This document shows, in pieces, positions 8,825 to 55,498 of a stretch of 64,000 bases of DNA (positions are counted from its first letter, which is position 1; every line of letters starts with the position of its first letter). The stretch is from Undibacterium sp. 5I1. GTDB lineage: Bacteria; Pseudomonadota; Gammaproteobacteria; Burkholderiales; Burkholderiaceae_D. The stretch lies in assembly GCF_034314085.1 (NCBI RefSeq), contig NZ_JAVIWI010000001.1, positions 1,984,001-2,048,000 on the forward strand. Direction: 5' to 3'. The position numbers were made by a program, and so were the translations under genes. The notes beneath the pieces are model-generated. The model did no database searches and was not told the origin of the DNA. It saw only the letters and a list, made by a program, of their open reading frames with translations.

Positions 8825-8910
8825 AATATACTGGCAGTAAGTATGTTTTAATAGCCCAATGAATGATTGGACAATCTGGCGTTTTTGATAAAATTATTAG
8901 GGAGTGTATT
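8825..8910 (+). repeat. 85-bp dispersed element, copy 1
   Basis: Left end AATATACTGG, internal hairpin CCCAAT-GAATG-ATTGGAC, right end TTATTAGGGAGTGTATT. Same architecture and length as the copies at 43460 and 55412; the ends are slightly degraded. Confidence 0.7.
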
Positions 8911-9098
8911 GATCTAGAGACGATCGTCGTCGCCATCAAGTACAACCGCAATTCACCGAATGAATGCAGCACAATCGGCAATCATGACCTAACAATGCGG
9001 TATCGTTGACGTCATTGTTTACCTCGTTAGCCCTAAGAGTTAGCTCCAAAAACGAGCCTTCTGCAAAACAAAGTAGCGGCAAGGCAAAACAGGCAAAG

Positions 9099-9127
9099 TT
9101 GAGTCAAAGCGAATAAAACAGCAAAAT
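9099..9127 (+). promoter_or_regulatory. Possible promoter for hscA-fdx-iscX
   Basis: TTGAGT, 17-base spacer, CAAAAT, about 120 bases before hscA. The match is modest. I list it because the terminator upstream would otherwise leave hscA poorly expressed. Confidence 0.3.
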
Positions 9128-9250
9128 ACATGCTCGAAACCGGTTTATATCATCACCTCGACCACACAATAAATCGCTGACGCAGAATATCGCGTCAGAA
9201 AAAGTCAAAATATTAGTCAACTAATTGTAAACATCAAGCGATCAACACAA

Positions 9251-11113
9251 ATGGCACTACTTCAGATTTCAGAACCAGGCATGTCCACCGCGCCGCATCA
9301 GCATCGTCTGGCTGTGGGGATTGATCTTGGCACCACCAACTCGCTGGTAGCGACCGTACGTAACAGCATTCCCGAAGTGTTGAATGATGAGCAGGGTCGC
9401 GCTCTACTGCCATCGGTGGTGCGCTATTTGCCCAACGGTCATGCGCATATTGGCTATAAGGCACAAGAGGCGCAAACGATAGATCCTAAGAATACGATCA
9501 TTTCAGCCAAGCGCTTTATGGGACGCGGGCTGAAAGATATTGCCCACGCAGAAAATTTGCCGTACGACTTCCACGACGTGCCAGGTATGGTGCAAGTGAA
9601 AACCGTAGCGGGAATTAAAAGTCCGGTAGAAATTTCGGCTCAGATTTTGGCAACTTTGCGGCAGCAGGCAGAAGACGCGCTGGGTGACGACCTGGTCGGT
9701 GCGGTCATTACCGTCCCCGCTTATTTTGATGATGCGCAAAGACAAGCAACCAAAGATGCGGCAAAACTCGCTGGGTTAAATGTATTGCGTCTGCTGAATG
9801 AACCTACCGCCGCTGCAATTGCCTATGGTCTGGACAATGCGTCAGAAGGCATTTTTGCTGTGTATGACCTCGGTGGTGGCACTTTTGACATCTCCATCTT
9901 ACGCATGAGCAAAGGTGTGTTTGAGGTTCAGGCGACCGGCGGTGACTCTGCATTAGGCGGTGATGATTTTGATCACCGCTTATTTTGCTGGATCGCCCAG
10001 CAAGCGCAACTAGCGCCCTTGTCCGATAGCGATACCCGTTTGCTGATGGTGAAATCGCGCGAAGCCAAAGAAATTCTATCGACCAAAAATTCGACCATGA
10101 TCGATGCGGTACTAGAATCAGGCGAACAAGTCCATGTCACCGTCAGTGCGGCTCAGTTTGTTGAGATCACGCAAACGCTGGTGGCTAAAACGATCGCACC
10201 ATGTAAAAAAGCGCTGCGTGACGCCGGGCTGACGATCGATGATATCGATGGCGTCGTCATGGTAGGCGGCGCTACCCGCATGCCGCATGTGCGCAAAGCG
10301 GTTGGTGATTTTTTTCAGACGACACCGCTGGCCAATATCGATCCGGACAAAGTGGTCGCGCTCGGCGCCGCGATTCAAGCCAATCTGCTGGCGGGCAACC
10401 GCGCACCCGGCGATGACTGGTTACTACTCGACGTTATCCCACTCTCTTTGGGGGTGGAAACCATGGGTGGACTGGCAGAAAAAGTCATCCCACGTAATTC
10501 GACTATCCCGTGCGCACGGGCACAAGAATTTACGACGTTTAAAGATGGTCAGACTGCGTTAGCGATCCATATCGTACAAGGCGAACGCGAGCTAGTCAGC
10601 GATTGTCGCTCCCTTGCACGCTTTGAGCTGCGCGGCATTCCACCGATGGCAGCCGGTGCAGCGCGCATCCGCATTACGTACCAGGTCGATGCTGATGGCT
10701 TGTTATCGGTCGCCGCACGCGAGCTACGTTCTGGTGTTGAAGCCTCAATCACGGTCAAGCCATCTTACGGCTTGGGTGACGATGAGGTTGCCCGCATGTT
10801 GCAAGACTCTTTTGCCTCGGCAGAAGGTGACATGCAACTACGCGCACTGAAAGAAGAGCAAGTCGAAGCCGAACGTATTTTACTGGCGACTGAATCAGCA
10901 CTGCAAGGTGACGCTCAGCTTTTATCCGAAACCGAAAAAACCGCGATTGCAGGCCTGATGGATGCAGTACGCCAGCAAGCGCAAGGTAGCGACCACAATG
11001 TTTTAAAAGCAGCGATTACGGCGTTGGCGGATGGTACTGAAGAATTTGCTGCGAGACGCATGGATCAAAGCGTACGTACTGCCTTATCTGGAAAAAAATT
11101 AGACGACATTTAA
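9251..11113 (+). CDS. hscA: Fe-S assembly chaperone HscA
   Basis: 620-residue Hsp70-type ATPase (616 in E. coli) that binds the LPPVK motif of IscU and drives cluster transfer. It begins [10 protein letters not shown] as in enterobacterial HscA; the nucleotide-binding domain shows GIDLGTTNS at 23-31, the phosphate-loop YDLGGGTFD near 205 and GGATRMP near 340, followed by the substrate-binding domain. No good Shine-Dalgarno site precedes the ATG. Separated from hscB by 542 bases. Confidence 0.96.
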
Positions 11114-11222
11114 GCTCTTGTGAGCTCTGTTGCAAACTGCATTTCACACTGCATTGCACACAACTTACAAGCGATCTGTCATCTGCACTAATGTCATTAT
11201 TGAGAAAAGAATAGAGAACACC

Positions 11223-11561
11223 ATGCCACAAATTATCGTTTTACCTCATCCTGTACTCTGCCCAGATGGCGCAGTGATCGAAGCCGAAGAAGGAAAATCT
11301 CTGTGTGAAGCGCTAGTAGAAAGCGATGTAGAAATAGAACATGCCTGCGAGATGTCTTGCGCCTGTACCACTTGCCATGTGGTCATACGCGAAGGATTTA
11401 AATCCTTAAACGGTTCAACTGAGGACGAAGAAGACTTGCTCGATGCGGCCTGGGGACTAGAAGCAAATTCCCGCTTGTCATGCCAGGTCAAACTCGGCAA
11501 GCAAGACATCACGATAGAAATCCCGAAATATACGATCAATCACGCACGCGAGAATCATTAA
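11223..11561 (+). CDS. fdx: [2Fe-2S] ferredoxin Fdx of the isc cluster
   Basis: 112 residues. The cluster ligands fall at Cys42, Cys48, Cys51 and Cys87, the same numbers as in E. coli Fdx (motif [10 protein letters not shown]). It donates electrons during cluster assembly on IscU. The start is ATG 11223 after AGAGAACACC; an in-frame upstream extension to 11130 has no family support. Confidence 0.96.
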
Positions 11562-11589
11562 ACTCGTTGCCAGAAATGAGGAGCGCATC

Positions 11590-11784
11590 ATGAAATGGAT
11601 AGACTCTCAGCAAATAGCAGAAGTGCTGTACGATAAGTTTCCGGATATTGATCCGCTGACAATACGCTTCACTGACCTGCATCGTTGGGTCTGTGAGCTG
11701 GCAGAATTTAACGACGATCCGCAACATTCTGGCGAAAAAATTCTGGAAGGAATCCAGATGGCATGGATAGACGAAGCCCGTTAA
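11590..11784 (+). CDS. iscX: Fe-S assembly protein IscX
   Basis: 64-residue acidic protein, the usual size of IscX/YfhJ. It has the family helix pattern ([42 protein letters not shown]). IscX binds IscS and modulates sulfur delivery, possibly depending on iron. GAGGAG lies eight bases before the ATG. Last gene of the isc cluster. Confidence 0.95.
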
Positions 11785-12278
11785 TTGCTTCCATAAGCAT
11801 AAACTCCCCATTATTTTCAGCAACAATACTAGATTGCCCAAGGTTTCCTTGGACGATTAAACAATACACAGGGGTAGTATTGTTCTGAAAGTACGGTAAA
11901 GCTATTAAAATAGCCGAAAAAAATCGGGACTAATTTCAGGCTTTCAACGACTATTTAGAAATCACCAGTCGAGCTATGTCCATCAAAAAATTTCTCGCTA
12001 CAGCATGGATTTTTTCTAATTTAATTAAGCAGAATCAATAAATTCTTAAACGAGCCTCGCGATCTGCCAGTTCATCAAACCCAAACGCCTATAATAGAGG
12101 CCTTTCGGCAACCGCCGGTTCAGATGACTTTAGATCGATCTGTACTAGTTACTGCACTTCATAAGCGCTACATGAAACGAGTATTCATCAAAATTAGCAT
12201 CCCTATTGAAATGGCATCTCCGGTGGAGAAACAGCTCACACATACAGCGATAATCGTATCGCCTACTACCGAGTCATT
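11785..12278. other. Intergenic region after iscX
   Basis: It contains one inverted copy of the dispersed element (11801-11884), a small GCTATT-AA-AATAGC hairpin near 11901, and a TATAAT at 12090-12095 that could be a -10 box for the next gene but lacks a good -35. Nothing else is recognised. Confidence 0.5.
11801..11884 (-). repeat. 85-bp dispersed element, copy 2 (inverted)
   Basis: Read on the minus strand: left end AACAATACTACC, internal hairpin CCAAGG-AAA-CCTTGG, GCAAT, then AAAATAATGGGGAGTTTA at the right end. The hairpin arms differ from copy 1 (CCAAT/ATTGG) but still pair fully. Confidence 0.7.
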
Positions 12279-13181
12279 ATGCTGATGCATCCATTGAAAC
12301 GCGGGCAACTCCTTTGCACAATTTTGGCCTTCTCACTTTTAAGCTGTTTGCTGACAAGCACATTGCCAGCCCACGCAGCCAATGTGGCCAATGTAGCAGC
12401 AAGCAGCTCCGACAATATGATTGTCAATATCGATGAGATGTCATCATCTGAACTACGCGACAAAATTGCTGCTGGCGCGACCACGATTCTGGTGCCGATC
12501 GGTGGTACTGAACAAAGCGGCCCGTATATTGCGCTCGGCAAACACAATACCCGCGCCTATGTGCTATCCAGACAAATCGCGCAAAAACTCGGCAATACTG
12601 TGGTAGCACCCGTGATCAGTTATGTGCCTGAAGGATCGATTCATCCGCCAGTCGCGCACATGCGATTTACCGGAACGATTTCGATTCCCGATGCGACTTT
12701 TGAATCGATTCTGGAGGCAACTGCCCGTAGTTTTAAACAACATGGTTTTCGTCATGTCATCTTTTTGGGTGATCATGGCGGTTACCAAAAAAATGAGGAC
12801 AAAGTCGCCACCAAACTCAATCGCGAATGGGCCAATGATCCTGGCTGCCGGGTGATTGCCTTGCTGGATTATTACCGAATTACCCAGACCGCTTATGTCG
12901 CAGATTTAAAGAGTCGCGGTTTTAGCGAAGCAGAAATCGGTACTCATGCCGGTCTGGCGGATACCGCATTGATGCTGGCAGTTGATAAATCCATGGTGCG
13001 CACTGAAGCTCTTGCTCGTGCCGCGAAGCCGGGACCGCAAGACGGCGTGTACGGCGACCCGCGACGCGCCACCGTAGAATTGGGACAATTAGGTGTACAG
13101 CGTATTGTAGAAACTTCCGTCAATGCCATCCGCGCAGCCTTGCGCGAGCATGAGGACGCTACGATTAACAAACGTAAATAA
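12279..13181 (+). CDS. Exported creatininase-family amidohydrolase
   Basis: 300 residues. Residues 1-33 form a signal peptide (basic start, hydrophobic stretch, cleavage near AHA-AN), so the protein is predicted periplasmic. The creatininase fold is shown by VPIGGTEQSGPYIALGKHN, near residue 70 (metal-binding Glu and His), and FLGDHGGYQKNED. Family members hydrolyse creatinine, formamides or peptide bonds in cofactor precursors (MftE). A signal peptide is unusual for the family. The next gene, 43 bases on, encodes a beta-propeller protein; the two probably form an operon. Substrate unknown. Confidence 0.85.
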   Translation: MLMHPLKRGQLLCTILAFSLLSCLLTSTLPAHAANVANVAASSSDNMIVNIDEMSSSELRDKIAAGATTILVPIGGTEQSGPYIALGKHNTRAYVLSRQIAQKLGNTVVAPVISYVPEGSIHPPVAHMRFTGTISIPDATFESILEATARSFKQHGFRHVIFLGDHGGYQKNEDKVATKLNREWANDPGCRVIALLDYYRITQTAYVADLKSRGFSEAEIGTHAGLADTALMLAVDKSMVRTEALARAAKPGPQDGVYGDPRRATVELGQLGVQRIVETSVNAIRAALREHEDATINKRK

Positions 13182-13223
13182 GCACAAATAAGCGTAAATA
13201 AGTAAGCGCAAGCAAAGGAAATA

Positions 13224-14549: not shown

Positions 14550-14909
14550 TGCAAATTAATGCACGTCAATGTGCATTAATGCGGTAAATAGAGTTAGCTT
14601 AAATTCACTGCGCTTGATTTCTCTCGGTCAATTGTATTTTTTGCGGCTATTAGCAAAGTGAGTTTCTTGCTTAAGCGTAAAAAGTATTTTAGTATCAATA
14701 AAATGCTTGATTAGATTCTCTTGCGTCATTTAAATCTGCTTCCCCTTCCATGCAAGTGCGTTTTTTTGCTTGATGGTGTACGTGTTGACGGTAGCAGAAG
14801 CTAGTACAGAGATCACATGCGCTAAGGCTCTGGTTGTCGTCGATATTGAGACATCCATGAGTATTCCAGTAGCACTCGCTAACAAGAAGTGATGCACAAG
14901 GATCTTGCA
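14550..14909. other. Intergenic region before the histidine kinase
   Basis: It holds the hairpin at 14555-14580 and otherwise AT-rich sequence with no promoter I would defend. AAGGA at 14898-14902 is the ribosome site of the next gene. Confidence 0.5.
14555..14580 (+). terminator. Hairpin after the beta-propeller gene, possible terminator
   Basis: ATTAATGCAC / GTGCATTAAT, ten perfect pairs with a six-base loop GTCAAT. No T run follows, so it may stabilise the mRNA end or terminate weakly. Confidence 0.4.
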
Positions 14910-16520
14910 ATGCAGTTTCAACATCTTCTTTCTGCGGTTCGCGGTCGGCTCACCTTAAGGCTGGCTATTATCCTTGCCGTAGTTTTTGGCTTGCTTGCAC
15001 CGTTTGTTATTCTCATCCCTTATTACCAAATCAGCATCGAGTCGGTAGCGCGCGAACGTACCACTGCTGATCACCAGCGCCTGGCTGATATCCTCGCCGT
15101 TATATTGAGCGAACCTCTCTGGCAAATTACGCCTGAAATCGCCAAAGTATCCAGCGAAGTGGTGTATTCCGACCCACGGGTGGCAGAAATCCGTGTAGTT
15201 ACCCTGCCCGATCATAAAGAATTTATTAGAAATGACACTCGCAGAAAATCACAAGAAGGACCGTTTAAAGTCGAGAAACGGAATATCAAACACGGTGAGC
15301 AAGTCATCGGTGAAGTAGAACTGACGTTGGCCGAGGATATCTTGCGAGAAAATCTGGCCTCAGAATTCAAACGCTATGCCAGCTCAGCCTTGGTCTCGTT
15401 GATTGTTGCGGTGGTATTTATTTTGCTGGTATTGCAATGGCGCTTGGTTCAGCCGATTAAACTCCTGATGACTGAGTCAGACCGGCTGGCCAATGGCCAG
15501 CTCAATGAGCCTATCTCGTTTAAGCGAGAAGATGAACTCGGTCATCTGGCGCTCAGCTTGGAAGCGACCCGGCAAGCACTACAAAGATCTTTCTCAGAAC
15601 TTGAAGTGAAGAATCAGCAATTACTTGAATATTCAGGCACGCTGGAATCCAAGGTTAAGCAGCGTACACAAGAATTAGAAACCCTCAATCTCACGCTCGA
15701 GACTGCGCTCAATAATGTCAACAACGCGCAAAATGAACTGGCTCGCGTTGAGCGCATGGCGGCACTCGGCTCCATGGTTGCAGGTGTCGCCCATGAACTG
15801 AATACGCCTCTTGGCAATTGCCTGTTGGTTGCCAGCACCTTAGAAGAAGAAACCAAACAACTGACGGGCCTGATGAACGCTGGCGCTATGCGCAAATCCG
15901 ATTTGACTCGTTATACCAATACCGCAAATGAGTCGACTAAATTATTGCTACGTGGCTTACAACATGCAGCTCGTTTAGTCGGCGATTTTAAACAAGTCGC
16001 GGTAGACCAATCGAGTGCCCAGCGACGTCAGTTTGGCTTACTGATTACCTTGCAAGAATTAGCTGCATTACTCAACTCCAGTTTGCGCAAAACGCCGTTC
16101 ACACTAGAACTGGATATTCCTGGAAATATTCAGCTAGACAGCTATCCCGGCCCTCTGGGTCAAGTCTTCACTAATCTGGTCAACAACGCAGTCAATCATG
16201 GCCTGGATGGCTTACCTGAGGGGCGCATGTATTGCAAGGCGCACCGTCAGGGCGACCACGTATTGATCGTGTTTGAAGATAACGGCAAAGGTATCGCACC
16301 GGAGGTCATTAAGCGCGTATTCGAGCCATTCTTTACCACCAAATTTGGTCAAGGTGGCAGCGGTCTTGGGCTGTCCATCACTTTTAATATCGTCAGTAAC
16401 GTGCTCGGTGGTGAAATCCGTGTTTCTAGCGAGCCAGGTAAAGGTGCCAGATTTGAAATCAGCATCCCGCTGGTTGCACCAGGACAAGCTAACTCAGCCA
16501 ATCCTCTGTTAAACAACTGA
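14910..16520 (+). CDS. Membrane sensor histidine kinase
   Basis: 536 residues from ATG 14910, chosen for the AAGGA seven bases upstream; ATG 14892 is also in frame. Order: transmembrane segment near residues 14-36, periplasmic sensor region, second membrane segment near 160-178, HAMP domain with RLANGQLNEPISFKREDELG, coiled coil, phosphoacceptor helix with His295 in VAGVAHELNTPLGN, then the ATPase domain with N box NLVNNAVNHG, G1 DNGKGIAPE and G2 GGSGLGLS. No response regulator gene is adjacent, so its partner must lie elsewhere. Signal unknown. Confidence 0.9.
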   Translation: MQFQHLLSAVRGRLTLRLAIILAVVFGLLAPFVILIPYYQISIESVARERTTADHQRLADILAVILSEPLWQITPEIAKVSSEVVYSDPRVAEIRVVTLPDHKEFIRNDTRRKSQEGPFKVEKRNIKHGEQVIGEVELTLAEDILRENLASEFKRYASSALVSLIVAVVFILLVLQWRLVQPIKLLMTESDRLANGQLNEPISFKREDELGHLALSLEATRQALQRSFSELEVKNQQLLEYSGTLESKVKQRTQELETLNLTLETALNNVNNAQNELARVERMAALGSMVAGVAHELNTPLGNCLLVASTLEEETKQLTGLMNAGAMRKSDLTRYTNTANESTKLLLRGLQHAARLVGDFKQVAVDQSSAQRRQFGLLITLQELAALLNSSLRKTPFTLELDIPGNIQLDSYPGPLGQVFTNLVNNAVNHGLDGLPEGRMYCKAHRQGDHVLIVFEDNGKGIAPEVIKRVFEPFFTTKFGQGGSGLGLSITFNIVSNVLGGEIRVSSEPGKGARFEISIPLVAPGQANSANPLLNN

Positions 16521-16600
16521 TCTATCGGTAATGCGCAATAAGTTTGTGTATTATCAGCTGTGCTCATGTGGTGCTTTACAACCATGAGCTTTCGCCACAC

Positions 16601-16683
16601 ATATACTCCCTATCTGTATATTTAAGCTACCCAGTCATTCCCTAGTTATTTCGACGTTTTATAGAAATAATATGGGGAGTATC
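16601..16683 (+). repeat. 85-bp dispersed element, copy 3
   Basis: Left end ATATACTCCC, TGTATATTTAAG, then TTATAGAAATAATATGGGGAGTAT at the right end (given in two parts: TTATAGAAATAATA and TGGGGAGTAT). The middle is diverged and the hairpin is weak. It lies between the kinase gene and thyA. Confidence 0.65.
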
Positions 16684-16756
16684 TAGATATTTATGTATTT
16701 GTTCATATGTTAGTCGGTAAACCGTTACAATCTCACAAAAATTTCCAAAGCTCATT

Positions 16757-17551
16757 ATGCGCCAATACCTCGACTTCATGCGCCATGTGCAACAACATGG
16801 CACTACCAAAACTGACCGCACCGGCACCGGCACCGTGTCAGTTTTTGGCTACCAAATGCGATTTGACCTGCAACAAGGCTTTCCATTGGTAACAACCAAA
16901 AAACTACATCTGAAATCTATCATCCATGAACTGATCTGGTTCTTGGCCGGCTCGACTAATACCAAATATCTGAGGGACAACGGCGTCTCGATCTGGGATG
17001 AATGGGCGGACGAGAATGGTAATCTGGGTCCGGTCTATGGCTCGCAATGGCGTAACTGGCCAGCGCCGGACGGTACTCATATCGATCAGATCAGCCAGCT
17101 CATCGCACAAATCAAAAGCAACCCGGACTCGCGCCGCTTGATTGTATCTGCCTGGAATGTAGCTGATATTCCGCAGATGAAGCTGCCGCCCTGCCATGCC
17201 TTATTCCAGTTTTATGTGGCGGATGGAAAGCTCTCTTGCCAGTTATACCAGCGCAGTGCCGATATTTTTTTAGGTGTGCCGTTTAATATTGCCTCATACG
17301 CTTTGCTGACCCATATGGTGGCGCAACAAACAGGTTTAGATGTCGGGGAATTTATCTGGACCGGCGGCGATTGCCATTTGTATTCAAACCACATGGATCA
17401 GGTCGCAGAGCAGTTATCACGCGACACCTTTGCGCCGCCAAAACTGATCATCAAGCGTCATCCGGAATCGATTTTTGATTATAAATTTGAGGATTTTGAG
17501 ATCGCAGATTACCAATTTCACCCGCATATTAAAGCGCCTGTCGCAGTCTAA
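16757..17551 (+). CDS. thyA: Thymidylate synthase
   Basis: 264 residues, identical in length to E. coli ThyA. The nucleophile Cys146 lies in [12 protein letters not shown] and the folate/dUMP-binding segments [29 protein letters not shown] and the [14 protein letters not shown] end are all present. It converts dUMP to dTMP, turning methylene-tetrahydrofolate into dihydrofolate, which the next gene's product reduces again. The operon thyA-folA has a 17-base gap. The ribosome site is weak. Confidence 0.98.
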
Positions 17552-22285: not shown

Positions 22286-23206
22286 ATGAATGAATTGTCC
22301 ACATTAGTACCGATTAAAAAAACAGAAATCAAAGTTGGTGAAGCATCACCTTGGCCGATTTACGACGCATGGGGTAATTTATTGCTCGATTCTGGTTGCA
22401 TCGTGAATAGCGAAAGGCAATTAGCAGATTTGATTGAAAACGGCTATTGCTCAGATACGACCTGGGCAGATGTCGGAAAAAAATCCTCACCTCCTATTTC
22501 CACTTTAAGCAAACCACCGTCGACCGTCGCAAAACCGCCCGTATCCGAGTTGAATAAAGATGAGTTAATGGAATTGGACAGCGTGCGCTGGCATGTTGGA
22601 GAAATTTTCTATCTGCAAGTGCATGATAATGCCGCTCTCAGGTATACCGTGCGCCTGATCGGTTTTGTTAAAAACAAATCGATCATTGTGAGCCCACCGA
22701 TGATTGATGGCAAAGGTGCGTTAATAAGAGATGGACAAACCTTTATCGTGCGGGCTTTCCCTGGCAAAAAAGCGTATGCCTTTACTGCCTCCGCGATCAA
22801 ATCGGTGTTTACGCCCTATGCCTATCTCCATCTGTCTTATCCTAAACAAGTACGTTGTACGACGATACGACAAAACTCCCGCGCTAACGTAAAGATTATT
22901 GCAGCCGTCAGCATAGGAGATCCGGAGCAAACTGCCGCTGCAACACTAGGTGATTTAAGTATGGGAGGTAGCTCTGGCGTGCTCAAAAAATTAATCGGTA
23001 AAAAGAATGATCTTGGTACCATCAAATTTAAAGTCAACGCTGCTGGCAATGATGAGTATCTGGTACTCAACGTTATATTAAGATCAATTTCTCCAACAGA
23101 GACTGGGGATGAATATCGCTATGGTTTTGAATTTGTCGATGTCCCAACGCAATCTAAATTAATTTTGTCCGCTTTTGTACATCAAACTCTGGCTGAAATA
23201 GAATAA
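22286..23206 (+). CDS. PilZ-domain c-di-GMP binding protein
   Basis: 306 residues. The first 80 hold a small unassigned domain and a Ser/Pro linker, residues 90-190 a YcgR-N-like beta domain, and the C-terminal third a PilZ domain with the ligand motifs RQNSR (RxxxR) and DLSMGGSSG (D/NxSxxG). Proteins of this plan brake flagellar motors or change adhesion when c-di-GMP rises. No flagellar or cyclase gene lies nearby. Terminators on both sides suggest it is transcribed alone. Confidence 0.88.
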   Translation: MNELSTLVPIKKTEIKVGEASPWPIYDAWGNLLLDSGCIVNSERQLADLIENGYCSDTTWADVGKKSSPPISTLSKPPSTVAKPPVSELNKDELMELDSVRWHVGEIFYLQVHDNAALRYTVRLIGFVKNKSIIVSPPMIDGKGALIRDGQTFIVRAFPGKKAYAFTASAIKSVFTPYAYLHLSYPKQVRCTTIRQNSRANVKIIAAVSIGDPEQTAAATLGDLSMGGSSGVLKKLIGKKNDLGTIKFKVNAAGNDEYLVLNVILRSISPTETGDEYRYGFEFVDVPTQSKLILSAFVHQTLAEIE

Positions 23207-23687
23207 AAATCTGATAGCAGTTTAGCTCACATCCCTCTTTCTCTCTGTTGTATTTTGTCCTTAAATCTGCATTGCTTTACTCAGGATTTTATTGGTTACC
23301 ACTAGAATTTATTTCCACATGAAAATTTATGCTAATGTATCAGAAAGTATCAAACTAACTGATTTTTGTTGTAAGCTACCTTAACCCTAGTAATAAGCAT
23401 TAAACAATACGACAGTAGAATGCAGAAAAACACATCTGCATCGCTGTTTTTTCTGCGGCAAAATCACATTATATTTTATACTCCGTACAGTATTATTAAT
23501 TCCCCACGTATATGTTGGTCGGTAGATTAACTATTTCTAAATTATGGGGGAGTATAGTGAAATTACTGCAAACTGTACTAAAGGAGAATGAAAGGAGAGG
23601 GCTTTTATTCTCTTTTCACCATGAATTGATTTTGTATAAATTCAGACATCTTAAGCCTCTCAAAACTACCTACAACGGAGATGTATC
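23207..23687. other. Intergenic region before the DUF1800 gene
   Basis: It contains one copy of the dispersed element (23477-23556) and, just after, a hairpin GAAAGGAGA / TCTCTTTTC at about 23590-23618. CGGAG at 23676 is the ribosome site of the next gene. Nothing else is recognised. Confidence 0.5.
23477..23556 (+). repeat. 85-bp dispersed element, copy 4
   Basis: Left end TATACTCCG, middle CCCCAC-GTATAT-GTTGG, right end AATTATGGGGGAGTATA. 80 bp, plus orientation. Confidence 0.65.
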
Positions 23688-25418
23688 ATGCCGTATCGCT
23701 TGATAAAACTGGCCGCAACTAGCGCCCTCGTAGCATTACTGACCTCTTGCGGAGGTGGTGGCGGTAGTGACACCAGTAATAGCAATAGTGGAACTGGTAC
23801 TGGAGGGGGAACATCGCCGCCGCCAGTGGCAATCGTGCCGCCGACTCAGGCGCAAGCAGCGCGGATGTTAGGACAAGCAAGCTTCGGTGCAACTACAACG
23901 GATATCAACAGCGTCGTCACTAGCGGCTACAGCAGTTGGATTGATACGCAGTTTGCTATTCCACAAACCTTGCACCGTAACTATATGGATAGCATCAGCG
24001 CGACTCTGCCAACAGGTACCACGATTAGTCAAAATCAATTCTTTGAGTCATTCTGGCAGCAAGCCATTACGGGTAAAGATCAATTACGCCAGCGTGTCAC
24101 CTTTGCACTATCACAAATTTTTGTAGTCTCGTTCCAGGACAGCACGGTTGCAAACTTCCCGCGCGGTGTAGCTTCTTATTACGACACTTTGGGCACAAAT
24201 GCCTTTGGCAATTTTCGCAGCTTGCTAGAAAACGTCAGCTTGCATCCAATGATGGGGATTTACCTGACTTCATTACGCAACCAAAAAGAATCAGGTACAC
24301 AAACCCCAGATGAAAATTACGCCCGTGAAGTAATGCAGTTGCTGACTATCGGTTTATATGAATTAAATCCGGATGGTTCATTAAAACTGAACAATGGCAA
24401 ACCGATAGAAACCTATACCAACACCGATATTACTGGCATGGCTAAAGTATTTACCGGCTGGAGCTGGGCTGGACCAGACAAGTCGGACAGCCGTTTTTTT
24501 GGCGGCACACCGGACGCCAATCGCGATTGGCAACCAATGCAGAGTTATCCCAAATATCATTCCACCTCTGAAAAAGCTTTTTTAGGTGTCACCGTTCCCG
24601 CCCAATCAACGCCTAATCCAGAGGCAAGTTTAAAAACTGCGTTAGATCGTCTGTTTAACCATAACAATGCCGCGCCATTTTTCAGTAAACAGCTCATACA
24701 ACGTCTGGTCACCAGCAACCCTAGTCCGCAATATGTTGGCAGAGTCGCTGCTGTATTTGCGGACAACGGCCAAGGTGTGCGCGGTGATATGAAGGCGATT
24801 ATTAAAGCTGTTTTGTTAGATACAGAAGCACGTACTGATGTCAGTAGCAGCACAACGACTGCCGGAAAATTGCGTGAACCGGTCATCCGTCTGGCAAATT
24901 GGATGCGCGCATTTAATGCAAGCTCTGCATCCAAACGCTTCTTGTTAGGTAGTTTGGATGATCCGCTCAGCGCATTAGGCCAGACACCAATGCGCTCCTC
25001 ATCGGTATTCAATTTTTATCGTCCTGGTTATGTTCCACCCAATACCAGCCTGGCTAGTGCAACACCTGAGCTGGTCGCACCCGAATTCCAAATCACCGGC
25101 GAAACCTCAGTCGTCGGATATTTAAATTTTATGCGCGATGTCATCCAGAATGGCACAGGATCTTCACGCGATGTCACCGCCGATTATTCCAGTTTGATTG
25201 CACTGGCCGATACACCGGACAAACTACTAGATCAGGTAAGTCTGCTGCTGACATCTAACCAGATGAGCGCCACTTTGCGTAACCAGATACTGGCTGCGGT
25301 CAACTCGGTTGCGATCTCGACGACCAGCACCACTGCGGCCGACACCGCCAGAAAAAATCGTGTCTATCTCAGTATTTTTCTGACGATGGCGTCCCCCGAA
25401 TACATCGTACAAAAATAA
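23688..25418 (+). CDS. DUF1800 family lipoprotein
   Basis: 576 residues. A lipoprotein signal peptide ends at LLTSCGG (Cys21), followed by a Gly/Ser/Thr linker. The DUF1800 domain follows: ARMLGQASFGATTTDI, RVTFALSQIFVVS, NYAREVMQLLTIGLYELNPDG, VFTGWSW and FNFYRPGYVPP. DUF1800 genes almost always stand beside DUF1501 genes, as here (12 bases apart). The pair is exported; its biochemical role is unknown. Confidence 0.9.
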   Translation: MPYRLIKLAATSALVALLTSCGGGGGSDTSNSNSGTGTGGGTSPPPVAIVPPTQAQAARMLGQASFGATTTDINSVVTSGYSSWIDTQFAIPQTLHRNYMDSISATLPTGTTISQNQFFESFWQQAITGKDQLRQRVTFALSQIFVVSFQDSTVANFPRGVASYYDTLGTNAFGNFRSLLENVSLHPMMGIYLTSLRNQKESGTQTPDENYAREVMQLLTIGLYELNPDGSLKLNNGKPIETYTNTDITGMAKVFTGWSWAGPDKSDSRFFGGTPDANRDWQPMQSYPKYHSTSEKAFLGVTVPAQSTPNPEASLKTALDRLFNHNNAAPFFSKQLIQRLVTSNPSPQYVGRVAAVFADNGQGVRGDMKAIIKAVLLDTEARTDVSSSTTTAGKLREPVIRLANWMRAFNASSASKRFLLGSLDDPLSALGQTPMRSSSVFNFYRPGYVPPNTSLASATPELVAPEFQITGETSVVGYLNFMRDVIQNGTGSSRDVTADYSSLIALADTPDKLLDQVSLLLTSNQMSATLRNQILAAVNSVAISTTSTTAADTARKNRVYLSIFLTMASPEYIVQK

Positions 25419-35511: not shown

Positions 35512-35618
35512 TTCCAGTAATGTTTTGGTGGTGCTCTAAAAATACGGGCGACTCTGCACCAGTGAATGACAGCACCATTTTGCTAGTAAATCACTCAGTA
35601 ATTACGCGTAAAAATGAA

Positions 35619-35699
35619 GATACTCCCCCTATTTTTTATAAAAAACGGCCTATAGACCATATAATACTTGGACAATTAAATATACTTACCCTCAGTATA
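35619..35699 (-). repeat. 85-bp dispersed element, copy 5 (inverted)
   Basis: On the minus strand: left end TATACTGAGGG, GTATATTTAATTGTCC, then ATAGGGGGAGTATC at the right end. It lies between the sigma-54 promoter and the activator gene. Confidence 0.65.
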
Positions 35700-35800
35700 A
35701 ATAAATATTAAATATTTTAAAAGTTTGCCAAAGTGTACTGATGTAGGGACCAGCAAGCGGATGCGAAAATAAATCAGTAGTGTTACATTAGGAATCTTGT

Positions 35801-43450: not shown

Positions 43451-43459
43451 ACGACTCTT

Positions 43460-43545
43460 AATATACTCGTATCTAGTATATTAAGAGTGTCCATATAATC
43501 ATTGGACAATGAGGCATTTTTAAAAAATAAAATGGGGAGTATATT
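43460..43545 (+). repeat. 85-bp dispersed element, copy 6
   Basis: Left end AATATACTCG, GTATATTAAGA, hairpin TGTCCA-TATAATCAT-TGGACA, AAAAAATAAAATGGGGAGTA, end TATT. It is one of the two best preserved copies. Its right-end GGGGAG falls nine bases before the TTG start of pcp. Confidence 0.8.
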
Positions 43546-43548
43546 CAA

Positions 43549-49672: not shown

Positions 49673-49675
49673 TCG

Positions 49676-49700
49676 GGAACTTCTAAAAACTCTTTAATTA
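49676..49700. repeat. Partial copy of the TTCTAAAAA motif
   Basis: GGGAACTTCTAAAAACTCTT TAATT matches the inverse of the right end of the 35801-35911 element (GGAAACTTCTAAAAACC, then CCTTAATC). It sits right after a gene stop codon. Confidence 0.4.
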
Positions 49701-49712
49701 TGATTAGTCTAA

Positions 49713-49759
49713 TTATTCTGGGTTCTTGAGCCATTTTCGTCTTGGAAGCCGCAGAATAA
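49713..49759. repeat. Hairpin with conserved core, family 3 copy 2
   Basis: TTATTCTG / CAGAATAA arms around a loop that contains GCCATTTTCGTC, CTTGGAA and GCCGCA, the same core as at 32658-32701, though the stem sequence is different. It lies between converging genes. The GGAACTTCTAAAAAC motif at 49676-49690 sits just upstream. Confidence 0.5.
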
Positions 49760-49882
49760 CTGGAATATTAAAATTGAAAAAGTCAACAATGGCGCTATAC
49801 AGGATTGTGGATTGCTTACACTCTCGCTCAGGATTAAGTGGAGTTTTATTCTGCTCAAAACAGGGCAGTTGGGCGTTGGCAG

Positions 49883-50284
49883 CTAGGCAAGTGTGTTGAC
49901 GTTGCCGCCGATAGCGGGATTCGCAATGCTTAAGCTTGGCGGAGTGATGGTGCGATTCTCTGCTCCTAGAGCGATGGTCAAATCCTTGGTGATGCTATTA
50001 TTTTCTTTAGAACGACTGGTTGTAGGGAGAGGCGTTTGCTGACTTGCATTGACGCTGTTTACCTGATCAATACGCGCCCTAACCTGACTAATTTTGCTAG
50101 ACAGCGATTGAATTTGCACTTTGCCTTCTATCGTTTTGGACGACGCGCAATTTACACAATCAGATAGCTGTTGCTGATACCTGGCAAGCTGCGCCTGAAG
50201 ACTGGCAAGCGCCGAAGCGGCATTGCCAGGATTAGCTGCACTGTTCCCGCCAATGATTGCAGAGGATGTTATCGCCTGTACCAT
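49883..50284 (-). CDS. FlxA-like protein
   Basis: 133 residues, no signal peptide. The central ASLQAQLARYQQQLSDCVNC and KVQIQSLSSKISQVRARID blocks form a short coiled coil with a CVNCASSKT pair of cysteines, as in FlxA-like proteins of betaproteobacteria. The C-terminus is Ser/Asn/Pro-rich. FlxA is expressed with flagellar genes in E. coli, but its role is unknown. Single minus-strand gene upstream of nothing related. Confidence 0.65.
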   Translation of the reverse strand: MVQAITSSAIIGGNSAANPGNAASALASLQAQLARYQQQLSDCVNCASSKTIEGKVQIQSLSSKISQVRARIDQVNSVNASQQTPLPTTSRSKENNSITKDLTIALGAENRTITPPSLSIANPAIGGNVNTLA

Positions 50285-50406
50285 GCTTCACTTTCGTCCT
50301 TGCTAATATCAATTGCACCTCGTATTTAGCTAAGTCGAACGAATAGCGGAAACCTTACATGAAATACAGATTTTGACGGTCCAATAAAAATGGAAATTTC
50401 CAACTA

Positions 50407-52521
50407 CTACTTATTCGCTAACGACAACACATTATCACTACCGCCCGCGCCGAATACTTGCGCTTTCAGATGAGCTAATTGATCACGTACCTGGGCCGCT
50501 TTTTCAAACTCCAGATTTTTGGCGTGATCGAGCATGAGTTTTTCCAAGCGCTTTATTTCTCTGCTAATTTGCTTCTCACTCATGACTTCATAGCGCGCAT
50601 GCTCTTGTGCAGCTTCTAGCTCTTGCTTGGCTTCTTGTTGGCTGTAGACGCCATCAATTAAATCTTTAATCTGTTTTTTAATGCCGATAGGCGTGATGTT
50701 ATTCGCCAAATTAAACGCAACTTGTTTAGTGCGCCGACGTTCAGTCTCATCAATGGCGCGACGCATAGAGTCGGTAATTTTATCGCCGTATAAAATTGCC
50801 ATCCCGTTTAAGTTACGTGCAGCACGGCCTATGGTTTGAATCAGGCTACGCTCCGACCGCAGGAAGCCTTCTTTATCAGCATCCAAGATCGCCACCAAAG
50901 ACACTTCTGGGATATCCAGACCTTCTCGTAAAAGGTTAATGCCGACCAACACATCGAAGGTACCCAAACGTAGATCACGGATAATTTCTACCCGCTCTAC
51001 CGTATCAATATCGCTGTGTAAATAACGTACTTTGATGCCGTTGTCCGCCAAAAAATCGGTCAATTGCTCGGACATTCGCTTCGTCAATGTCGTGACCAAG
51101 ACACGCTCATTTTTCTGTACACGAATCGTAATCTCGTTCATCAGATCATCGACTTGCGTTAATGCCGGACGCACTTCAATTAGCGGATCGACCAAGCCTG
51201 TCGGTCGTACTACTTGTTCAACAACTTGATCGGCATGCTGTTTTTCATATTCTGCCGGGGTAGCTGACACAAAAATCGTCTGCCGCATTTTGCTCTCAAA
51301 TTCTACAAACTTGAGCGGACGATTATCTAGCGCGGACGGCAGCCGGAAACCATAATCAACCAGATTTGTTTTTCGTGCTCTGTCGCCGTTATACATGCCG
51401 TTTAACTGTCCGGTCAGTACATGTGACTCATCTAAAAACATGAGCGCGTCTGCGGGCAAATAATCCACCAGTGTCGGCGGTGGATCACCGGCTTTAGCGC
51501 CACTTAAATGGCGTGAATAGTTTTCAATGCCTTTAGTAAAACCGATCTCGGACATCATCTCTAAATCAAAACGTGTACGTTGTTCTATCCGCTGCTCTTC
51601 AATCAGCTTATTCTCTTTGCGGAAAAATTCTAAGCGTTCACGCAGCTCGATTTTGATTGTTTCTACTGCGCGTAATACGGTTTCGCGCGGGGTCACGTAA
51701 TGCGAACTTGGATAGACAGTAAAGCGTGGAATTTTTTGTTTTACGCGGCCGGTCAGCGGATCAAATAATTGGAGATTTTCGATCTCATCATCAAACATTT
51801 CTACCCGTACTGCTAGTTCAGCATGTTCTGCCGGGAAGATATCAATCGTATCGCCACGCACCCGGAATGTGCCGCGGCCGAAATCAATTTCGTTCCTGGT
51901 GTATTGCATCTGAATCAGGCGTGCGATCAAATCCCGCTGGCTGACTTTGTCCTTTGTGCGTAAGGTCAAAATCATCTTGTGGTATTCGCTAGGATTACCG
52001 ATACCGTAAATCGCAGAGACGGTCGCGACAATAATCACATCACGCCGCTCCATCAGTGACTTGGTGCAAGACAAGCGCATTTGCTCAATATGCTCGTTGA
52101 TCGCAGAATCTTTTTCGATAAATAAATCACGCTGTGGGACATACGCTTCTGGCTGATAATAATCGTAGTAGCTGACGAAATATTCCACGGCATTACGCGG
52201 AAAAAATTCGCGGAACTCGCTGTACAACTGCGCTGCCAAAGTTTTATTAGGTGCAAAAACAATCGCAGGCCGGCCGCTTTGCGCGATTACGTTTGCCATC
52301 GTATAAGTTTTGCCAGAACCGGTTACCCCAAGCAAAGTCTGGAAAAACAAACCGTCGTTAATCCCCTCCAGCAACTTGGCAATCGCAGCCGGTTGATCGC
52401 CCGCCGGAGGAAAAGGCTGAAATAGCTCAAACTGAGAATCCGGAAAAGTGACGAACTTGCCTTCCGGCGGATTATTAGTATTGCTATTATTTTCAGCAGA
52501 AATTATCGATGCTACAGGCAT
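50407..52521 (-). CDS. uvrB: Excinuclease ABC subunit B
   Basis: 704 residues from ATG 52521 (AAGG upstream); a longer frame to 52584 has no family support. Walker A is [14 protein letters not shown], the DNA-gripping hairpin is [15 protein letters not shown], helicase motifs [28 protein letters not shown] and QTIGRAARN follow, and the C-terminal UVR domain binds UvrC ([21 protein letters not shown] in two parts, [12 protein letters not shown] and EFEKAAQVR). It verifies DNA damage in nucleotide excision repair. No good LexA box is seen upstream. Confidence 0.97.
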
Positions 52522-52604
52522 GACGCACTTACCTTTGTTAGAATGGGGTGATTGAAATTTCAAGCATGTCCAGATTGTCACCAATTGGCATTATTCCAAC
52601 CTCT

Positions 52605-52622
52605 CTGTCAGAAATTTGACAG
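52605..52622. promoter_or_regulatory. Palindrome in the uvrB / aminotransferase intergenic region
   Basis: CTGTCAGAAATTTGACAG, a perfect six-base inverted repeat with a six-base centre, 22 bases before the aminotransferase start. The spacing between CTGT and ACAG is ten, so it is not a standard LexA box (eight). It could be an operator for either gene. Confidence 0.4.
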
Positions 52623-52643
52623 CTAATTTTTCATATTATCACG

Positions 52644-53858
52644 ATGAACGCACCTGCCTCCGCCTCCCTGTTCTCTGCCATAGAAATGGCACCACGCGAT
52701 CCTATCCTCGGCATCACAGAGGGCTTTAACGCGGATAAAAATCCCGCTAAAGTCAATCTTGGTGTCGGCGTTTATTACGATGATAATGGCAAAGTGCCAT
52801 TGTTGGAATGCGTCAAAAAAGCCGAAGCTATTTTGATGGAAAAATTCGCGCCACGCACTTACTTGCCGATTGAAGGCTTAGCTGCTTATGATAAAGCAGT
52901 ACAAGAATTAGTGTTCGGTGCAGACAGTGCCGTTGTTGTAGAAAAGCGTGTCATCACGGCGCAAGCAATTGGTGGCACTGGTGCATTGAAATTGGGTGCC
53001 GACTTTTTAAAACGCTTCGCGCCGGATTCGCAAGTATGGATCAGCGATCCAAGCTGGGAAAACCATCGCGCTTTATTTGAATCTGCTGGCTTTGTGGTCA
53101 ATTCCTACCCCTACTACGACGCAGTGACTAAAGGCGTGAACTTTGCAGGCATGCTAGAGGCACTGAAGGCCATGCCAGCAGGCGCGATCGTGTTGCTGCA
53201 CGCGTGCTGCCACAATCCGACTGGCGCCGATCTGAGCGATGCACAATGGACGGAAGTCATCGCAGTCGTCACCGAACGCAAGCTGGTACCCTTCCTGGAT
53301 ATGGCTTACCAAGGTTTTGGCGATGGCATAGAAGCCGATGGCAAAGTAGTACGCCGCTTTGCGGAAACTGGATGCGCTCTGTTCGTCTCCAATTCATTCT
53401 CTAAATCCTTCTCCTTGTACGGCGAGCGCGTTGGCGCACTGAGTATTGCCGCCTCCAGTGCAGAAGAAGCTGCGCGCATCATGTCTCAATTAAAGCGTGT
53501 AATCCGTACTAACTATTCCAATCCACCAACTCATGGCGGCCAAGTAGTTGCGACCGTATTGTCAACACCAGAACTGCGCCAATTGTGGGAAGAAGAACTG
53601 GCAGGCATGCGGGTACGCATCCGCGAAATGCGCTCTGCCTTTGTTGCAGAGTTAAAAGCAAAAGCTCCAGCGTATAACTTTGACTTTGTGACCCAGCAAC
53701 GCGGCATGTTTTCTTACTCTGGCTTAACGAAAGAGCAAGTAGAAAAGCTGCGTGATAACAATTCTATCTACGCTGTCGATACCGGTCGTATTTGTGTTGC
53801 AGCTTTAAACAAGCGCAATATCGATGTCGTCATTGACGCAATTGCTCAGGTTTTATAG
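52644..53858 (+). CDS. Aromatic/aspartate aminotransferase
   Basis: 404 residues of the class I aspartate/tyrosine aminotransferase family (AspC/TyrB). VNLGVGVYYDDNGKVPLLE opens the fold, GTGALKLGADFLKR is the cofactor loop, LHACCHNPTGADLS carries the Asn/Pro motif and the PLP lysine is in SNSFSKSFSLYGERVG. The C-terminal FSYSGL and GRICVAALN with substrate-binding Arg are present. Whether it prefers aspartate or aromatic amino acids cannot be decided here. Divergent from uvrB, a common arrangement in betaproteobacteria. Confidence 0.92.
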   Translation: MNAPASASLFSAIEMAPRDPILGITEGFNADKNPAKVNLGVGVYYDDNGKVPLLECVKKAEAILMEKFAPRTYLPIEGLAAYDKAVQELVFGADSAVVVEKRVITAQAIGGTGALKLGADFLKRFAPDSQVWISDPSWENHRALFESAGFVVNSYPYYDAVTKGVNFAGMLEALKAMPAGAIVLLHACCHNPTGADLSDAQWTEVIAVVTERKLVPFLDMAYQGFGDGIEADGKVVRRFAETGCALFVSNSFSKSFSLYGERVGALSIAASSAEEAARIMSQLKRVIRTNYSNPPTHGGQVVATVLSTPELRQLWEEELAGMRVRIREMRSAFVAELKAKAPAYNFDFVTQQRGMFSYSGLTKEQVEKLRDNNSIYAVDTGRICVAALNKRNIDVVIDAIAQVL

Positions 53859-53879
53859 ACGTTTCAGGGTAGAAAAATT

Positions 53880-53908
53880 TTGACAGAACAGGCAAAGACG
53901 CATATAAT
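53880..53908 (+). promoter_or_regulatory. Consensus sigma-70 promoter of the tRNA-Asn genes
   Basis: TTGACA, 17 bases, TATAAT: both hexamers and the spacing are perfect. Transcription would start a few bases before the first tRNA gene, in TTTGTCTCTG. Confidence 0.85.
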
Positions 53909-53920
53909 CTTTGTCTCTGT

Positions 53921-53996
53921 TCCCTGATAGCTCAGTTGGTAGAGCGACGGACTGTTAATCCGCAGGTCCCTGGTTCGAGTCCAGGTCGGGGAGCCA
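53921..53996 (+). tRNA. tRNA-Asn (GTT), first copy
   Basis: 76 bases with encoded CCA. Acceptor TCCCTGA pairs with TCGGGGA, D arm GCTCAGTTGGTAGAGC, anticodon loop CTGTTAA with GTT at 53954-53956, T arm GGTTCGAGTCC. Identical to the second copy. Confidence 0.97.
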
Positions 53997-54058
53997 CAGA
54001 ATTCCTAGCATGTTGCAAGTGCAGTAAAAAGTTTAACGAAGATCATCATTTCTTCTAT

Positions 54059-54134
54059 TCCCTGATAGCTCAGTTGGTAGAGCGACGGACTGTTAATCCG
54101 CAGGTCCCTGGTTCGAGTCCAGGTCGGGGAGCCA
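54059..54134 (+). tRNA. tRNA-Asn (GTT), second copy
   Basis: Identical over all 76 bases to the copy at 53921, 62 bases downstream. The shared block starts one base earlier (TTCCCTGA). Both are read from the promoter at 53880, and a terminator follows at 54142. Confidence 0.97.
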
Positions 54135-54141
54135 AATAATT

Positions 54142-54176
54142 AAGGGGTCGCATGCAAATGCGACCCCTTTTGTTTT
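54142..54176 (+). terminator. Rho-independent terminator after the tRNA-Asn pair
   Basis: AAGGGGTCGCAT / ATGCGACCCCTT, twelve perfect pairs with a four-base loop, followed by TTTTGTTTTT. Very strong. Confidence 0.93.
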
Positions 54177-54285
54177 TCGCTCAAATGTTATTCCGATGCA
54201 TTTGTTGGGAAATAATCGGTCAGTCTCTTTTTAAATCTGGCGCATAAATTGTCCTGTCCAAGCTAATCCAAGTTTCTAAAGAACA

Positions 54286-54309
54286 AAAGCCCGACATCAA
54301 TCGGGCTTT
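54286..54309 (-). terminator. Terminator after the exported methyltransferase gene
   Basis: AAAGCCCGA / TCGGGCTTT, nine pairs, six-base loop. On the minus strand it is followed by TTTTGTTC, so it ends the gene at 54386-55246; on the plus strand the T run is TTTCATTTT. Confidence 0.75.
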
Positions 54310-54385
54310 CATTTTCAAGCATCCAATACATCAGCAAATACATCAGCAAATCAATCCGCGATCACACCATCATTAAGTAAGCTTT

Positions 54386-55246
54386 CTACGGCTTAACGAA
54401 ACGCAAAGTAAAGCGGTCGCTCTCACCGATCTCTTTGTATTTCTGACGATTATTTTCTTTATCAGCGTAGGTCGGCGGCAGTGTCCAAACACCTTTCGCA
54501 TAATCCTTTGTATCTTTAGGATTAGCATTCACTTCACTCTTCCCCACCAATTTAAATCCTGCTTGCTGGGCTAATGCGATGACATACTCTTCTGGCAAAT
54601 AGCCGGTATCAATTAATTTTGCGTCTAAAGTTTTACCAGCAGCCGCGCGATGATCAACCACACCTAACACACCGCCCGGTTTAAGCACGTCGAACATCGC
54701 CTTGAAGGTAGGGACTTCTGTATGATCTCCGACCCAGTTATGCACGTTTCTAAAGGTCAGCACGTAGTCAGCTGAGTTTGCCGGTCCAAATTGCGGTGCG
54801 GCTGGATCAAAATTAATTGTCCTTGCTTTGCTGTAGCGCTCAGGATCTGCAAGAAATTTTTTATTTTGTGCGTCTGCTGTTCTGTTCTGATATGCAGCGC
54901 TGCTAGCAGACACTTTATTGCCGTCAATATTGGCGGCAATGTAATGGCCCTTCTCTTTTAAAAAAGGTGCCAGTATCTCGCCATACCAAGCTGATCCGCC
55001 CGGAGTAATTTCGATCACCGTCGCATTAGCTTGAACACCAAAAAATTCCAAGGTCTGTTTTGGGTGGCGATATTGATCTCGCGCGCGATTTTCGTCAGAA
55101 CGCCAAACACCTTTGATAACGGTGTCTAAGCCGGAATCAACTACGTTAGTTTGTGCTACAACGGGGTTGAGCACGCCGCAAAGCAGAGCACTAACGGTCA
55201 GAAATAAACGTGATTTATTGATTAAATGAGATTGGGGGAAGTTCAT
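54386..55246 (-). CDS. Exported class I methyltransferase-like protein
   Basis: 286 residues. Residues 1-32 are a signal peptide (LFLTVSALLCGVLNPVVAQ, cleavage after VAQ). The rest has a Rossmann-type SAM methyltransferase pattern: VIEITPGGSAWYGEILAPFL (motif I with Glu-x-x-x-Gly-Gly), YIAANIDGNK, ADYVLTFRNVHNWV (motif IV region) and LKPGGVLGVVDHRA. SAM is not known to be available in the periplasm, so the activity is puzzling. Single gene, minus strand. Confidence 0.82.
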   Translation of the reverse strand: MNFPQSHLINKSRLFLTVSALLCGVLNPVVAQTNVVDSGLDTVIKGVWRSDENRARDQYRHPKQTLEFFGVQANATVIEITPGGSAWYGEILAPFLKEKGHYIAANIDGNKVSASSAAYQNRTADAQNKKFLADPERYSKARTINFDPAAPQFGPANSADYVLTFRNVHNWVGDHTEVPTFKAMFDVLKPGGVLGVVDHRAAAGKTLDAKLIDTGYLPEEYVIALAQQAGFKLVGKSEVNANPKDTKDYAKGVWTLPPTYADKENNRQKYKEIGESDRFTLRFVKP

Positions 55247-55411
55247 GAATTATTCCTAGCATTTTTAAATGAGCATTAGCACTGCCTGGCTCCACTTAGG
55301 TTCAACAAGGAGATGGGTCAGAGCTATCTATTTGAAACAGTAGACCAAGCATTGTCACAACAATTCTGCATACATTGAATATATTTTTATGGTACGTCAT
55401 TCTCTACAGAA

Positions 55412-55498
55412 GAATATACTCATCATAGTATATTTTAACTGTCCATATATTAACTGGACAGTAAGCCAATTTAAGAAAATATAATGGGGAGTATATTC
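55412..55498 (+). repeat. 85-bp dispersed element, copy 7
   Basis: The best preserved copy: perfect ten-base terminal inverted repeat GAATATACTC / GAGTATATTC, GTATATTTTAA, hairpin CTGTCCA-N9-TGGACAG, and AAAATATAATGGGG before the right end. 87 bp. Confidence 0.85.

Follow-up and report, generated by a model that had tools for sequence, protein, structure and literature searches.

A dispersed intergenic repeat family of Undibacterium with three conserved half-sites and a possible role as protein-binding sites

We analysed a stretch of 64,000 nucleotides from Undibacterium sp. 5I1 (positions 1,984,001-2,048,000 of the chromosome; hereafter the window), in which a first-pass annotation had noticed seven short elements between genes. 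These belong to a new family of repeats that are dispersed over intergenic regions and have inverted ends, possibly of the kind of miniature inverted-repeat transposable elements (MITEs) or repetitive extragenic palindromic (REP) sequences. Its non-coding copies of about 90 bp, estimated at about 550 on the 4,709,037-base chromosome, share three nearly invariant sites that are constrained in orthologous copies, and at some loci a copy lies in the same place and orientation in distant species. The repeats are best read as DNA sites and not as RNA genes. From sequence comparison, and with a confidence that stops somewhat short of even, we favour an old, now static family whose copies would be kept as protein-binding sites; we prefer this to folded RNA or dead mobile DNA because the copies are static and their sites conserved, while the middle appears to drift with a species dialect.

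An abundant intergenic element with three nearly invariant sites

All seven copies were located where the annotation had placed them, each scoring 47 to 71 bits with a sequence-only profile (R1) built from these seven and 29 other copies of the same genome, and the window contained no eighth. The family extends throughout the chromosome, with 126 full copies counted in 1,084 kb (two blocks of 684 and 400 kb, window included; 8 partial matches excluded), the count from which the chromosomal estimate was scaled and with which the 7 copies per 64 kb of the window are consistent. In its own genome R1 gave at least 150 matches (the best 150 of 2411 candidates), and the right-end 12-mer GGGGAGTATATT was matched 437 times genome-wide with at most one mismatch, versus 7 times for the reversed control. 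The second replicon (171,029 bases), searched whole with R1, had no copy at E <= 0.01 where about 20 were expected (p = 2e-9, Poisson, gene density ignored). Strands were balanced, with 61 plus and 65 minus copies. No Rfam family reached its gathering score over the elements, the only matches in the window being two tRNAs, and in the open-access PMC literature we found no paper linking Undibacterium with intergenic repeats or genome repeat sequences.

The anatomy was read from 115 copies aligned without any structure, in which three stretches are nearly invariant. Site I is TATACT, mostly then C; site II, AGTATATT, follows 7 bases on in the opposite sense, forming an inverted pair (TATACT-N7-AGTATATT); site III has the half-site GGGGAGTAT, and the right end of the element, behind an A/T tract and about 50 bases past site II, reads GGGGAGTATATT. 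A CCA-N9-TGG dyad whose loop varies stands between the conserved sites and is a further, lineage-specific part. The ends form terminal inverted repeats: in each column of the ATACT core of site I, 106 or more of the 111 class 1 cells with a letter on either side are paired with site III, the base pair next to this core is formed in 91 of 111, and the perfect ten-base inverted ends ascribed to the copy at 55412 are indeed present (GAATATACTC/GAGTATATTC). A second class, 14 of the 126 copies, has the right module reversed (ATACTCC, then the A/T tract) and does not have the inverted end arrangement. The loop, judged by eye, occurs in both orientations among different copies. Modules seem to change orientation independently of one another, and strand switching between short inverted repeats may be the cause. 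Second-class copies include those at 1692113, 1744348, 1792081 and 1926810 of the chromosome (G000:C1, G000 being this genome) and others, some with a reversed loop. A candidate in-place flip at 1695981, in opposite orientation behind the same gene in genomes G013 and G033, was set aside as no clean case, the gene on the other side being different.

With genes called by a simple script, 125 of the 126 copies lay in gaps between the called genes that measured 110 bases or more. Divergent gaps were avoided (7 of 125 copies versus 99 of 498 gaps, p = 6e-7) and convergent ones enriched (31 of 125 versus 78 of 498, p = 0.002). Copies were also spaced more evenly than when distinct gaps are drawn at random: for the 684 kb block the coefficient of variation (CV) of spacing was 0.606 versus 0.92 +- 0.10 for this null, with 1 of 2000 draws as low, and the effect was weaker in the 400 kb block (0.705 versus 0.90 +- 0.12; 50 of 2000, rising to 131 with weighting by length). 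A null that allows several points per gap (CV 1.22) exaggerates the effect.

Static copies, constrained sites and species dialects

The sister species (G035) aligns with G000 in pieces that are mostly 91-97% identical (range 86-98%). Its sample comprised 55 copies in 406 kb, 26 of which were unmappable, their G000 counterpart lying outside the compared sequence or unaligned; each of the 29 mappable copies has a same-orientation partner in G000, with no polymorphic insertion site among them. Three G000 matches that first looked unpaired were a piece of a copy split by an insertion sequence (IS), a copy found in G035 by inspection, and a copy that sits in a stretch of 7 kb missing from G035. Among 110 G000 paralogues (5 of 115 dropped) mean identity was 66.8%, mean identity to the nearest paralogue 76.8% and that of the best pair 87.0%, versus 89.8% for orthologous G000/G035 copies (23 pairs). 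There is therefore no sign of transposition since the two species split, and within the part compared the family has been static since then. Elsewhere, a G011 site without the element was too diverged for a junction to be read.

Constraint was measured on 23 of the 29 pairs, six that were class 2, partial or IS-split being omitted. Identical bases numbered 137 of 138 at site I, 178 of 184 at site II and 197 of 207 at site III, as compared with 1094 of 1242 in the left flank and 910 of 1012 in the right one (together 2004 of 2254). Sites changed far less than flanks (20 of 598 versus 250 of 2254, p = 3.1e-10), that is 3.3% versus 11-12% in flanks and interior, and also less than the rest of the element (p = 1.4e-10). 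Within that rest, the spacer kept 138 of 161 bases, the loop 170 of 201, the first stem arm 103 of 115 and the second 127 of 135, so the first arm and loop diverge at about the flank rate and the second arm somewhat more slowly. Since loop and first arm change about as the flanks do and the three sites are far more conserved, the main constraint is on the sequence at the sites.

The annotation had proposed collecting copies in related Oxalobacteraceae, and they do occur there, found in Undibacterium only. R1 matched 22 of 60 genomes (its own included), all within the genus, and none of 24 genomes from other genera of the same order; 14 of the 35 other genus members had no match. A second model, R2, was made from 33 copies of other species (38 candidates, minus one duplicate, three near-identical copies of one locus and one weak copy). 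It matched 14 of 41 genomes and, outside the genus, none of 149 others in the order, a search of the best 29 candidates per genome under strict filters in which weak relatives could be missed. Among the best 106 candidates, R2 counts were at least 105 in G020, 93 in G019, 92 in G013, 88 in G015, 79 in G017, 78 in G011, 64 in G006, 49 in G014, 25 in G022, 16 in G003, 2 in each of G018 and G021 and 1 in G004, and zero among the matches listed for G001, G002, G005, G007-G010, G012, G016, G023 and G024.

Five large genomes (G004, G018, G026, G031 and G034) have a single R1 copy each, always in the same place, 3' of a gene for a SIS-domain protein and 5' of a sugar-binding-protein gene; the R2 counts above cover two of them, G018 and G004. 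The same place beside the SIS-domain gene, in the same orientation, is also occupied by eye in G000, G035, G011, G013, G015 and G033 (where the stretch read has no sugar-binding-protein gene), and thus in 11 of 14 genomes, with G001, G002 and G003 lacking a copy; in G020 only a fragment of the region remains. In a midpoint-rooted gene tree, several nodes of which are weak (40-71), many-copy species fall both inside and outside the single-R1-copy group. The idea that the single-copy genomes represent founders was accordingly dropped, the tree not favouring founding over loss, and their one copy may instead be a remnant after loss.

A second kept place is that of the window copy at 16599, before the thymidylate synthase gene, which is also occupied in G035, G020, G015, G011 and G033, with the ends kept in all and the interior in G035 only. 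The copy is decayed in G006 and was not found in G013; among other related records, read by eye, one Undibacterium metagenome-assembled genome (L074) has a decayed form and eight have nothing recognisable.

Interiors appear to lean slightly towards a species dialect, as might be expected of sites adapting to a species-specific partner. Identity of interiors was 54% for the same place across species (41 comparisons) versus 60-65% for other places in one species (292 comparisons in G000, 3 to 11 in each other species). These figures derive from 8 of the 11 SIS-locus copies and 97 of the 115 G000 copies, the close pairs G000/G035 and G004/G018 being omitted. The dialect of G003 reaches the sites themselves: in the six copies read (L337, L339, L341, L342, L343) sites I and II are both changed, to ATACCCC/GGGGTAT (ATACCCCC/GGGGGTAT), and site III is GAGTAT in four copies and GGGTAT in two.

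Together, these observations suggest how the elements may work. Each copy would be a platform of about 90 bp, in which the inverted half-site pair and the third half-site about 50 bp on, behind its A/T tract, could be occupied by a sequence-specific, probably dimeric DNA-binding protein that likely bends or loops the DNA between them. The family would have spread within the genus long ago and then become static, with copies retained where a bound site is useful to the cell or at least harmless. Several points weigh against such binding sites. No candidate for the binding protein was identified, and the neighbouring genes show no functional theme. Many genus members carry no copy (14 of 35 by R1, as above, and 11 of 24 by R2), so the genus as a whole cannot depend on the function. 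Among the three window positions that could be tested, those at 8821, 11799 and 16599, only one was found beyond G035. Conservation was measured on copies that the model can find, and this favours copies with intact sites; in the G000/G035 comparison we saw no decay on one side only, but one G000 copy lies in the 7 kb stretch that G035 lacks. The G003 dialect, with site III retained in most copies read while sites I and II are changed, does not fit one protein reading three half-sites alike. Finally, promoter-like matches overlapping three of the seven window copies may leave room for a role in transcription.

A more specific form of the idea is that the copies together serve, along the whole chromosome, as docking sites for a DNA-binding protein that is dedicated to them, is confined to the genus and would help to organise or mark the chromosome. 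Under it, the approximately 550 sites, one every 9 kb or so, spaced more evenly than chance and none of them on the second replicon, would be selected one by one, with a dialect that tracks the protein in each species; we regard this as unlikely. Interspersed intergenic repeats are usually dismissed as dead mobile DNA, and constraint on defined sites inside static orthologous copies makes it testable whether such a repeat is a parasite or part of the cell. The species group with a single R1 copy offers a simple knock-out system.

Folding, mobility and transcription as alternatives

The annotation had described hairpins that differ in sequence and still pair, and took covariation as proof of a selected fold. 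Neither statement was supported by closer comparison: the copies at 16601, 23477 and 35619 have no full stem by eye, RNAalifold gave zero consensus pairs on 36 copies, and over 115 copies the central stem hardly covaries beyond its column composition. The proposal made there, of structured RNAs or single-stranded DNA hairpins under selection to fold, may claim three observations. Pairs form in 82.9% of the cells of the central stem, versus 81.5% for shuffles, 3 of 500 of which are as high, and at most 42.6% when the stem is slid by 1-3 columns, as expected for a palindromic consensus; site I with site III, paired in 80.6% of cells, has a covariation score of 0.084 versus 0.072, above all 500 shuffles, and 23 cells changed on both sides versus 16.6 (6 of 500 reach it); and three window copies fold better than their own shuffles (z -5.7 for the copy at 55412, -3.0 at 43460 and -2.9 at 11801). 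The other four window copies, however, have z between -0.2 and -1.9, and the central stem's covariation score of 0.164 compares with 0.151 +- 0.008 in shuffles (28 of 500 reach it), a small excess that, like those in stem pairing and at the ends, may stem from relatedness alone, because kinship among the sequences can lift such scores above shuffles even where nothing folds. The number of pairs with changes in both partners is about the same before and after shuffling, for the central stem (5 versus 5.1), for sites I and III (4 versus 4.1) and for the A/T stretch (5 versus 4.6), which gives no covariation signal. With no consensus fold, a loop and first arm no more conserved than flanks and no Rfam family at its gathering score, selection for a fold appears very improbable.

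An origin of the family by transposition is likely, and a means of movement was sought in the genomes. A search for a REP transposase as mobiliser found no link to the elements. RAYT-like genes were read in nine genomes (G000, G015, G013, G020, G011, G001, G017, G006 and G014); other repeats follow them by eye, and the element lies downstream only in G000 and G020. The G000 protein scores 60 bits on the NCBIfam REP-associated transposase model, whose cut-off is 80. RAYT was rejected as the cognate transposase, the gene being present also in G001, which has no element by R1 or R2, with other repeats behind it. This RAYT-like gene (2814-3509 of L312 in G000; L315, L313, L316 and others), beside what is presumably gltB, is kept in the genus with repeats of its own, for example CTATGTCCCCAATT and GACACTGACCC (by eye). 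Column frequencies of the 115 copies contain no GTAG/CGTC tag beside the stem, and the string CGTC appears only as part of the stem itself, where consensus position 33 is C (28% of copies).

No autonomous relative with the same ends was seen among the partial matches read in the 684 kb block. Two long copies, at 1703862 and 2182800, were rejected as autonomous parents, as they carry IS30-family insertions (NF033563). This IS30-family element has 8 full copies in G000: three interrupt elements, at almost identical points (model positions 61-64), two end about 31 bases from an element, and three have no element within 400 bases. The inserted ones are L382, L383 and L386 (G000:C1 near 1702818, 949317 and 2181756), with L384 and L387 close by, and the end of the IS30-family element itself carries GGGGGAGTATAT, the right-end motif of the intergenic element. 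PMC1525189 deals with REP sequences that serve as targets of IS elements.

A purely selfish family, MITE- or REPIN-like, whose copies were once moved in trans by an end-recognising transposase and have no host function, is a serious possibility, to which we give perhaps a third of our belief. It would explain the inverted ends, the hundreds of dispersed copies in both orientations, the patchy presence in the genus with copy numbers from 0 to at least 105, and the confinement to intergenic gaps with avoidance of divergent promoters; it would further derive the species-specific consensus from repeated small bursts, and the even spacing, with close pairs fewer than by chance, from target immunity or loss of close pairs. 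It fits less well with the absence of near-identical copies (the best pair of 110 being the one at 87.0%), with the lack of insertion polymorphism in the compared G000/G035 blocks, except for the copy in the 7 kb stretch, and with the results above on autonomous relatives and on RAYT-like genes in species without detected elements. Moreover, the half-sites of static copies stay conserved, which is unexpected for dead insertions and agrees with the protein-binding sites that we favour. A local transcription element (operon-internal attenuator, terminator, promoter or operator) that was copied widely, with the SIS-locus copy as the ancestral, regulatory one, is improbable. The SIS-locus copy is the sole R1 match in the five large genomes and in place in 11 of 14, its G000 gene cluster also holds a GntR-like gene (below NCBIfam curated cut-offs), and promoter-like matches (9 to 10 of 12) overlap the window copies at 8821, 35614 and 55411. 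Such matches are, however, no commoner in these regions than in shuffles (19 versus 25.3, 18 versus 30.5), divergent gaps are avoided, and the gene tree lets the SIS-locus copy be a remnant instead of a founder. Gene directions in element orientation, counted in the 684 kb block (+,+ 20; -,- 33; +,- 18; -,+ 4), show that orientation is not tied to the neighbouring genes; with this independence and a terminator-like match overlapping only one of the seven window copies, the elements do not qualify as intrinsic terminators.

Known repeat families and the copies in the window

Correia elements of Neisseria and the pneumococcal BOX and RUP sequences are abundant, modular, MITE-like intergenic repeats of one genus or species, and the Undibacterium element resembles them in abundance, modularity and restricted host range; their ends and modules appear to differ from those described here, where class 2 copies have the right module inverted. 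The ERIC or IRU elements of enterobacteria, generally regarded as old and MITE-like, are intergenic repeats of approximately 70-130 bp with inverted ends and many copies, and are thus alike in size, location, ends and abundance. Compared by description, the Undibacterium element differs from them in three half-sites that are measurably constrained per locus and in interiors that lean to a dialect. Small enterobacterial repeat units are treated in PMC2759123. REPINs (PMC3116915) are extragenic, number hundreds of copies and have two inverted short conserved ends with a freer middle; the Undibacterium element shares inverted conserved ends, a freer middle and extragenic abundance with this REPIN/RAYT system, but has neither a GTAG-type tag beside the hairpin nor a link to RAYT. 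GTAG- and CGTC-tagged REPs (PMC3733652) and our element have in common that they are families of short, palindromic sequences between genes. The tagged REPs are single palindromes of 20-40 bp, one end of which carries an unpaired tag, and ours differs in its 90 bp and three sites.

By the gene calls made here all seven window copies are intergenic, which agrees with the annotation, with a caveat for two of them. The first (8821..8913, plus strand, 68.6 bits) lies between hscB-like (8205-8708) and hscA-like (9251-11113) genes, the HscB protein having its nearest relatives mainly in Undibacterium, and the second (11799..11885, minus, 58.7 bits) between a 2Fe-2S ferredoxin gene (11130-11561) and a creatininase-family gene, where it overlaps an open reading frame (ORF) of 101 residues without Pfam match (11536-11841, minus); both have an orthologous copy in G035, the only other genome in which they were found. 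The third (16599..16687, plus, 53.2 bits), in the position common to several species, stands between a histidine kinase gene (14889-16520) and the thymidylate synthase gene (16757-17551), and the fourth (23470..23560, plus, 47.2 bits) between a PilZ-domain gene (22286-23206) and a DUF1800 gene (23688-25418). The fifth (35614..35705, minus, 67.7 bits) occupies a gap between divergent genes, a rare context for the family, and overlaps one weak terminator-like and two promoter-like matches. The sixth (43458..43548, plus, 71.1 bits) is directly 3' of a DUF2007-like ORF (just below the Pfam cut-off), beginning 8 bases past a stop codon, and 5' of a pyroglutamyl peptidase gene. The seventh (55411..55499, plus, 71.0 bits) separates two minus-strand genes, at 54386-55246 (without Pfam match) and 55692-56066 (MerR). 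Elsewhere in the window, the two tRNA genes form a tandem pair at 53898-54141, with equal scores and 91% likeness over 106 bases, and directly behind them, at 54142-54169, stands a strong terminator-like hairpin.

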